A stretch of DNA of 37,052 bases from assembly GCA_028344675.1 (NCBI GenBank), contig JAOMBT010000008.1, forward strand, positions 1 to 37,052, written 5' to 3'. A program made the position numbers and the translations under genes. Shown in pieces: positions 24,431-26,450 of the stretch; the stretch's first letter is position 1, and each line of letters opens with the position of its first letter. Under the pieces are notes generated by a model, which saw only the letters and a program-made list of their open reading frames with translations, ran no database searches and was not told where the DNA came from. Source of the stretch: Acidimicrobiaceae bacterium (lineage in GTDB: Bacteria; Actinomycetota; Acidimicrobiia; Actinomarinales; Actinomarinaceae).

Positions 24431-24943
24431 ATGGAAAAATTTCTTAGCCATCGCACATTAATTTTAAACTCGACATTTCAACCTCTTTCTGTTGTTTCAT
24501 ATAAGCGATCACTATCACTTTTATTAAATAAAAAAATTCATTCTCTTGAAGATTCTAAAATAGTATTTAAATCTGAAAAAATTCAAATGAATTTACCAAA
24601 TGTTGCTTTGTTGAATTATTTTGTTAATGCTCCATACTCAAGAAGAGTTGCGCTCAATAAAGAAAATATTTTCATTAGAGATTTTTACACTTGTCAATAT
24701 TGTGGAGGTATCGCAGAATCTGTAGACCATATTATTCCAAAGTCAAAAGGAGGGGAGCACGTTTGGAGCAATGTAGTTGCTTGTTGCAAAAAATGTAATT
24801 TAATAAAAGCTGACAAAGATTTGTTACTTACAAGCCTTAAATTAACAAAATTACCAGAACCTCCAGTAGGAGCATTTTGGGTAAAAACCATTGTTGGCTC
24901 AAATCCAGATCCATCATGGAAAAAATACCTTAAGTCTGCCTAA
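24431..24943 (+). CDS. HNH endonuclease
   Basis: YTCQYCGGIAESVDHIIPKSKGGEHVWSNVVACCKKCNLIKAD: two CxxC and the HNH core. Confidence 0.9.
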   Translation: MEKFLSHRTLILNSTFQPLSVVSYKRSLSLLLNKKIHSLEDSKIVFKSEKIQMNLPNVALLNYFVNAPYSRRVALNKENIFIRDFYTCQYCGGIAESVDHIIPKSKGGEHVWSNVVACCKKCNLIKADKDLLLTSLKLTKLPEPPVGAFWVKTIVGSNPDPSWKKYLKSA

Positions 24944-24957
24944 AAAATTTTTCTCTA

Positions 24958-25032
24958 AAAGTGTTGCAAAGTGGTAGATAGTGTCATATAATGTTTAAAA
25001 GTGGTTCAAGGCACGAAAGGCGGATAAAGTGT
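24958..25032 (+). promoter_or_regulatory. mraZ promoter with AAAGTG(T/G) MraZ-type boxes
   Basis: TTGCAA 24964-24969, 17-bp spacer, TATAAT 24987-24992; boxes AAAGTGT 24958, AAAGTGG 24968, ATAGTGT 24978, AAAGTGG 24998, AAAGTGT 25026 (overlaps GTG start). Confidence 0.8.
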
Positions 25033-25451
25033 TCCTTGGTGAGTTTCAACATACAATGGACTCTAAAGGTAGAGTAGTTATACCTTCAAAGTTTAGAACA
25101 AGGCTTCAACAGGGCTGTGTAATCACCAAGGGGCAAGATAATTGCCTTCAAATACTTACAAAGAAGACCTGGGAAGAAGAAGCATCAAAAATGGCTTCAC
25201 TTCCTTCAACCGATCGCACTTCTAGACAATTAAGAAGAGCTTTGTTCAGTGGAGCTATTGATGTGAAAATTGACTCTGCTGGACGAGTGCCAATTCCGGA
25301 AAATCTAAGAGAATATAGTGGAATTGATTTTAATGAAGAAGTCACTGTAACAGGTTCTGGTCCGGTAGTAGAAGTATGGTCAACAAGAAGTTGGAAAAAA
25401 ATCCAAAAAGAAGCTGATCAATCATTTGCAAACATAAATGAGGTGAAATAA
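25029..25451 (+). CDS. mraZ: Transcriptional regulator MraZ
   Basis: FLGEFQHTMDSKGRVVIPSKFR and VKIDSAGRVPIPENLREYSGI (two SpoVT/AbrB-like motifs); GTG start with SD GAAAGG. Confidence 0.96.
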   Translation: MFLGEFQHTMDSKGRVVIPSKFRTRLQQGCVITKGQDNCLQILTKKTWEEEASKMASLPSTDRTSRQLRRALFSGAIDVKIDSAGRVPIPENLREYSGIDFNEEVTVTGSGPVVEVWSTRSWKKIQKEADQSFANINEVK

Positions 25452-25462
25452 TAGGTTCATAG

Positions 25463-25539
25463 CCAGCTCTCTAGACAACTAAATTGGAACACCCTTACTC
25501 CGCCCAACTTTCCAATTGGTGCCAGTTCTAGAGAGCTGG
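25463..25539 (+). ncRNA. Structured element in mraZ-rsmH intergenic region (candidate mraW RNA motif-like cis-regulator)
   Basis: Outer 13-bp perfect inverted repeat CCAGCTCTCTAGA (25463-25475)/TCTAGAGAGCTGG (25527-25539), inner 8-bp AATTGGAA (25482-25489)/TTCCAATT (25510-25517), 2 bp before rsmH ATG. Confidence 0.65.
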
Positions 25540-25541
25540 GT

Positions 25542-26450
25542 ATGAATAAAAACAGGGTTGGGTACTTAGAACACGAAGGGGTAATGTTAACTGAAGTTAA
25601 TTCAGTCATTTCAACTTCACCTCCAGGCATTTTTGTAGATGCAACTTATGGATATGGTTCTCATTTTAAAAATATTAAAGAAAAATATCCTAAATTTAAT
25701 CTTTTGGGTTTTGATAGAGATATAGATATTCTTAATACATCAAGTATTGTAAATTTAAATTTTTCACAAATTTCTGATTATCTAAATGAAAATAAAATAA
25801 AACAGATTTCTGGGATTCTTTACGATTTTGGAGTCTCCTCTCATCAGCTCGATAATTATTCAAGAGGTTTTTCTTACTCACACAATGGTCCTTTAGACAT
25901 GAGGATGAATCAGAATGATGAAATTAAGGCATATGATGTAGTCAATACTTTTGATGAAAAGTTAATTGCAAGTATTATATTTCATAATTCTGGAGAAAAA
26001 AATTCACGACGTATTGCAAAAGATATTGTCAACTCTCGTCCTATAGAAAGCACACAAGATCTCGTAAGTGTGATTAAGAATTCTATTGGAAAGCAAAATC
26101 CAAAATATATACGCCAGACTATTAAAAGGTGTTTTCAATCATTTCGAATTTATGTAAATAATGAATTAAATGAAATTCAATTATCTTTAAATAGTATTAA
26201 CAAATTTGTTAAATCAAATGGTGTAATAGTATGTTTAACTTACCATTCCCTTGAAGACAAAATCGTTAAAAATATTTTTAATGAATTAACTACTTCATGT
26301 ATATGTGAAATTTCTTTACCCGTGTGTACTTGTAAAAATGAACAACAGTATTGTTATGGAAAAAAAAAGAAAATTTATCCATCTGATGAAGAAATCTTAA
26401 AAAATCCAAGGGCATCATCAGCAACCCTTCGATATGTGACTAAGTTATGA
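25542..26450 (+). CDS. rsmH: 16S rRNA m4C1402 methyltransferase RsmH (MraW)
   Basis: DATYGYGSHFKNI, LYDFGVSSHQLDNYSRGFSYSHNGPLDMRMNQ, CLTYHSLEDKIVKNIF. Confidence 0.95.
   Translation: MNKNRVGYLEHEGVMLTEVNSVISTSPPGIFVDATYGYGSHFKNIKEKYPKFNLLGFDRDIDILNTSSIVNLNFSQISDYLNENKIKQISGILYDFGVSSHQLDNYSRGFSYSHNGPLDMRMNQNDEIKAYDVVNTFDEKLIASIIFHNSGEKNSRRIAKDIVNSRPIESTQDLVSVIKNSIGKQNPKYIRQTIKRCFQSFRIYVNNELNEIQLSLNSINKFVKSNGVIVCLTYHSLEDKIVKNIFNELTTSCICEISLPVCTCKNEQQYCYGKKKKIYPSDEEILKNPRASSATLRYVTKL

Follow-up and report, generated by a model that had tools for sequence, protein, structure and literature searches.

A nested hairpin with a nearly invariant loop between mraZ and rsmH: probably a new regulatory RNA of one actinobacterial class

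What occupies the one wide gap at the entry of the division and cell-wall (dcw) cluster in this genome, and does it control the gene that follows? In the 37,052-nucleotide stretch of DNA analysed here (the window), mraZ (25029..25451, forward strand) is followed on the same strand by rsmH, also called mraW (25542..26450), which is the gene proposed to be gated. From rsmH to about 37,047, each gene overlaps or abuts its neighbour, and the mraZ-rsmH gap is therefore the only sizeable one in the run, as the initial annotation had stated and as the gene coordinates bear out. The source genome is low in GC and its closest named relatives are Candidatus Actinomarina; in this streamlined marine lineage the median intergenic distance is 2-3 bp (PMC7771536).

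The region upstream of mraZ has features of its own. Three GTG(T/G)(T/C) boxes at 24961, 24971 and 24981 (24961-24992), spaced by 10 bp, are interleaved with a sigma-70-like promoter, TTGCAA-17-TATAAT, and are kept in the relatives examined; by their sequence, these boxes look like MraZ autoregulation boxes. A block directly 5' of mraZ (AAAGTGGTTCAAGGCACGAAAGGCGGA, about 25000-25028) is near-identical among the Actinomarina relatives compared, and an HNH-endonuclease-like open reading frame (24431-24943; CQYCGG...VDHIIPKSKGG) adjoins the mraZ promoter on its upstream side.

The gap itself holds a nested hairpin. A 13-bp perfect inverted repeat (CCAGCTCTCTAGA, 25463-25475, and TCTAGAGAGCTGG, 25527-25539) encloses an 8-bp one (AATTGGAA, 25482-25489, and TTCCAATT, 25510-25517) with a 20-nt loop (CACCCTTACTCCGCCCAACT, 25490-25509), while an SD-like AGAGAG occupies 25530-25535 and rsmH begins with the ATG at 25542; the sequences and positions originally given for all of these features are correct. 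In a repeat search, the outer repeat, 20 nt at 95% complementarity, was the best-matched long inverted repeat of the window. Beyond this description, GUUCAUA at 25455-25461 pairs with UAUGAAU at 25541-25547, a 7-bp extension absent from the initial annotation, and the rsmH AUG is therefore buried in addition to the SD-like AGAGAG. The whole RNA element, which includes the rsmH start codon, thus spans 25455..25547 (93 nt, forward strand, as are all its parts), and the mraZ stop codon (25449-25451) lies 3 nt ahead of the stem. The 5' arm of the outer stem (25455..25475) consists of the 7 bp of GUUCAUA opposite the start-codon region, one mismatch, and 13 bp, CCAGCUCUCUAGA; its 3' arm (25527..25547) contains both AGAGAG and the AUG (25542-25544). 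Inside it, the inner stem (AAUUGGAA, 25482..25489, with UUCCAAUU, 25510..25517) carries the apical loop CACCCUUACUCCGCCCAACU (25490..25509), of which the ACUCCGCCC portion is nearly invariant throughout the class, and is followed by an asymmetric internal loop with a conserved 3' side, UGCCAGU (25520..25526; class form GCGCCAGCG).

The predicted RNA fold has an energy of -40 kcal/mol (z = -4.4), which was equalled by 0/200 shuffles. According to the computation, the rsmH AUG has an unpaired probability of about 0.001, and opening the start region 25527-25550 costs about 23 kcal/mol. The stem has no U-tract on its 3' side and no terminator-like site was detected, in line with the earlier view that this is not a terminator. 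The claim that it is a translational switch or processing element holds in part: it is a non-terminator RNA that sequesters the SD-like stretch, and a switch function is what we infer from this. The observation of a nested hairpin is thus confirmed as real, and is stronger than first described.

Conservation within Candidatus Actinomarina is extreme. Among 29 species, 87/93 columns of the element are invariant and mean identity is 98.5%, whereas third codon positions, compared in gapless pairs, are 60% identical in mraZ and 58% in rsmH; the element is therefore very strongly constrained, stems included. Because the sequence is frozen, covariation within these 29 species is nearly absent. An absence of covariation in relatives had been proposed as grounds for refutation, but the genus taken alone is misleading in this respect, since the class is strongly positive. 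The stems in Actinomarina are frozen like the loop, although compensatory change occurs elsewhere in the class, and pairing alone is insufficient to explain this.

In the class, a common hairpin was found upstream of rsmH in most of the 24 relatives inspected. R1, a 40-nt covariance model of the apical hairpin built from six class relatives, matches at least 143/296 class genomes, nearly always once per genome; this is a lower bound because R1 missed Actinomarina in whole-genome mode, and it recovered the Actinomarina element at E 0.01-0.03 in a small search. The source genome likewise holds a single copy. For 110 of the 115 class matches examined, rsmH lies directly downstream, with mraZ detected directly upstream in most, and the remaining five are among the weakest. 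In the phylum sample, R1 matches 13/298 genomes, of which eight belong to the class; the other five matches are weak, and none is near rsmH. In six sampled class members, no element was found within the stretch inspected. Four of them have mraZ and rsmH overlapping by 4-8 nt, and such gene overlap may substitute for the element as another way to set rsmH translation.

The pairing is supported by covariation. In an alignment fitted to the model, 70 cells of the inner hairpin have both pairing partners changed, whereas shuffles average 31. For the full element, we rely on an alignment of 21 sequences made with MAFFT without structure, in place of an earlier one whose register had been picked for maximal pairing and in which two subgroups were one base off. 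In the MAFFT alignment, 90.2% of cells pair, versus 34-47% when the arms are slid, and compensatory double changes occur in 20/36 pairs, a number reached by 0/500 shuffles; RNAalifold, unaided, gives essentially the same stem. Sequestration of the rsmH ribosome-binding region by a structured RNA, as initially proposed, is thus borne out by the fold and by class-wide covariation, with the start codon paired too.

Is this RNA already known? Neither the window, nor the element, nor 20 class loci matched any Rfam family, and a literature search retrieved no paper describing the element. The initial annotation had suggested either that it is a diverged mraW RNA motif (RF01746) or that it forms a new class. 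RF01746 gives no match on the window, on the element at E<=10 or on 20 class loci at E<=1, and is found in none of the sampled class genomes; in the phylum it occurs in 15/248 genomes (11 above the cut-off), with hairpins placed between -4 and +18 nt relative to the mraZ stop. The suggestion of a new class is therefore the one supported, as no Rfam family matches and the loop differs, even though the slot is shared with the mraW motif. Common ancestry, with the element as a divergent homologue of the mraW motif, is a tentative possibility: the slot directly 3' of the mraZ stop, the long nested hairpin and a C-rich loop starting with ACU speak for it, but the RF01746 model gives no score on any class locus tested, the loop consensus differs and the phylum sample contains no intermediate. 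As judged from sequence comparison, the hairpin with its near-invariant loop upstream of rsmH is an uncatalogued RNA family of one actinobacterial class, and probably a new regulatory RNA.

The family has two architectures. Type A comprises 39 class sequences and Actinomarina, including the element of the source genome. Its outer stem is 17-39 bp long, mostly 22-30, and the 3' arm carries GGGGGG, GGAGGG or similar; the SD-like G-run is covered by the stem, and in most members an in-frame rsmH start lies within the stem at +14/+15. In type A and Actinomarina, SD and start codon are thus paired in a conserved, covarying stem. Type B has an extra hairpin, often with GGAGAGA, and its rsmH start is often >=30 nt past the stem. 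Universal SD sequestration is rejected, as many type B members lack it; sequestration is a trait of type A and not of the family, whose members have in common their location, a long stem and the loop. A strict geometry from mraZ stop to stem across the class was also rejected, as this distance varies widely. The second hairpin of type B (loci L047-L053 and L160-L185) often carries GGAGAGA or GGGGAGAAA, and its GGAG is a conceivable pairing partner for the CUCC in the first loop.

We propose, at roughly even confidence, that the element acts in cis as a gate on rsmH translation, and this gating would possibly extend, via overlapping reading frames, to the following dcw genes. By default, the gate would be closed, with the SD-like stretch and the start codon buried in the long stem, as folding and covariation suggest. 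It could be opened by the ribosome that ends mraZ, whose stop is here 3 nt from the stem and which would melt the base of the hairpin, and/or by a factor acting in trans, which would recognise the near-invariant loop and shift the balance. The near-invariant loop beside variable stems in the class counts for the gate. The rsmH starts beyond the stem in type B and the variable distance from the mraZ stop count against its generality, and the frozen stems of Actinomarina count against an account based on pairing only.

The main rival to this translational gate is processing by RNase III, in which the duplex would be cut, mraZ and rsmH mRNAs would be separated with stabilities of their own, and rsmH would be translated from the cut product, which has lost the 5' arm. 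In length the duplex suffices, with about 20 bp near-continuous in the present element and often 22-30 bp among type A members, the enzyme is encoded in the source genome and in nearly all relatives searched, and a start outside the stem, as in type B, is compatible with such cleavage. Furthermore, Corynebacterium glutamicum depends on cleavage of its mraZ mRNA by RNase III to divide efficiently, according to the account of Maeda et al. (2016) in a paper that cites it (PMC8247434). However, the cut reported there falls in the mraZ coding region, and processing explains neither the near-invariant apical loop nor why SD and start codon keep fixed positions within the type A stem. We consider this explanation unlikely.

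For the gate, the question then becomes which factor might read the loop. Across 99 distinct elements, for which CCGCCC served as the anchor, the loop core ACUCCGCCCGCUU hardly varies; the flanks, which were not used as anchor, are CU in 99/99 and GCUU in 97-99/99 per position. Two further elements have CUCCACCCG in the loop, and the Actinomarina form is ACUCCGCCCAACU. The class loop core ACUCCGCCCG is identical at 9/10 bases to 16S 1396-ACACCGCCCG-1405, which spans C1402 and is where the core matches best in 16S from three species. A match this good over C1402 was reached by 13/3000 shuffles for the 14-nt class core and by 80/3000 for the 23-nt loop; the Actinomarina loop alone scores lower and is not significant (301/3000). 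The likeness to 16S around C1402 is a post hoc observation and is to be taken as suggestive. An extension of the mimicry to the RF01746 loop was rejected, as there is no 16S match there.

Because the loop copies the 16S stretch around C1402, the residue that RsmH methylates (PMC5053481), RsmH would be the likeliest loop-reading factor. The gate would stay shut while free RsmH occupies the loop, and pre-30S particles would draw the protein away by titration. The occurrence of a single copy upstream of rsmH (110/115) fits such autogenous cis control, and one locus per genome together with the precedent of sgm and kgmB is suggestive of it. Against it stand the requirement for 30S, as the substrate of RsmH is the assembled 30S and not naked 16S (PMC5053481), the RNA binding without sequence specificity of human METTL15 (PMC10828496) and the lack of a match in the RF01746 loop. 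On this evidence, RsmH as the loop-binding factor is an attractive but doubtful candidate, and the fuller reading, in which it would bind its own mRNA because the loop mimics its 16S substrate, so that a sensor of 30S maturation controls translation of rsmH and possibly of the dcw genes, is perhaps on the improbable side.

Assembly factors besides RsmH also work on the same 16S site. The loop could accordingly be bound by another factor, such as a small RNA or a protein of the ribosome or of its assembly, and the gate would then not be autogenous via RsmH; conservation of the loop at the sequence level and the dissimilarity of the RF01746 loop to 16S would also agree with this. However, there is a single locus per genome, always at rsmH, and a search of the source genome, about 70% complete, for a base-pairing partner of the loop core (GGGCGGAGT) returned the element itself only; we regard such a factor as unlikely. 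Finally, a repeat, mobile-element remnant or terminator, to which the inverted repeat and its near-frozen state within the genus might point, is largely refuted by the compensatory stem changes and, given the single copy, the fixed position upstream of rsmH class-wide and the lack of a terminator-like site, is very improbable.

The element matters in several respects. An uncatalogued, strongly covarying RNA family stands at the dcw cluster entry in a highly streamlined free-living marine lineage, where about 90 nt are frozen genus-wide despite near-absent intergenic space. RsmH offers a concrete candidate ligand for mraZ-rsmH leader RNAs, of which the Actinomycetales counterpart, the mraW motif, has no known function in the literature found. 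If the reading of RsmH mimicry is true, it would tie ribosome assembly to cell division across a whole bacterial class.

Three known systems invite comparison. The sgm signal is the CCGCCC of 16S 1399-1404. Like rsmH, sgm and kgmB encode decoding-site 16S methyltransferases, and their translation is under negative autoregulation (PMC2791848); they are different enzymes, for drug resistance, and leader structure and covariation were compared for rsmH only. In C. glutamicum, double-stranded RNA in the mraZ-mraW transcript is likewise important for division, as far as the citing paper relates, but the cleavage reported there falls within the mraZ coding sequence, whereas the present element lies between mraZ and rsmH. 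The mraW RNA motif (RF01746) of Actinomycetales, listed in Weinberg et al. 2010 (PMC2864571) and of unknown function (PMC5640933), shares with the element the slot between the mraZ stop and rsmH/mraW, the long nested hairpin and a C-rich apical loop. That loop is CUUCCCC in the mraW motif and ACUCCGCCCGCUU here, the rsmH start usually lies beyond the hairpin in the former and is paired together with the SD in the latter, and the two differ in taxonomic range. Overall, the element sits in the same place as the mraW motif, is not a member of it, and possibly shares its job.
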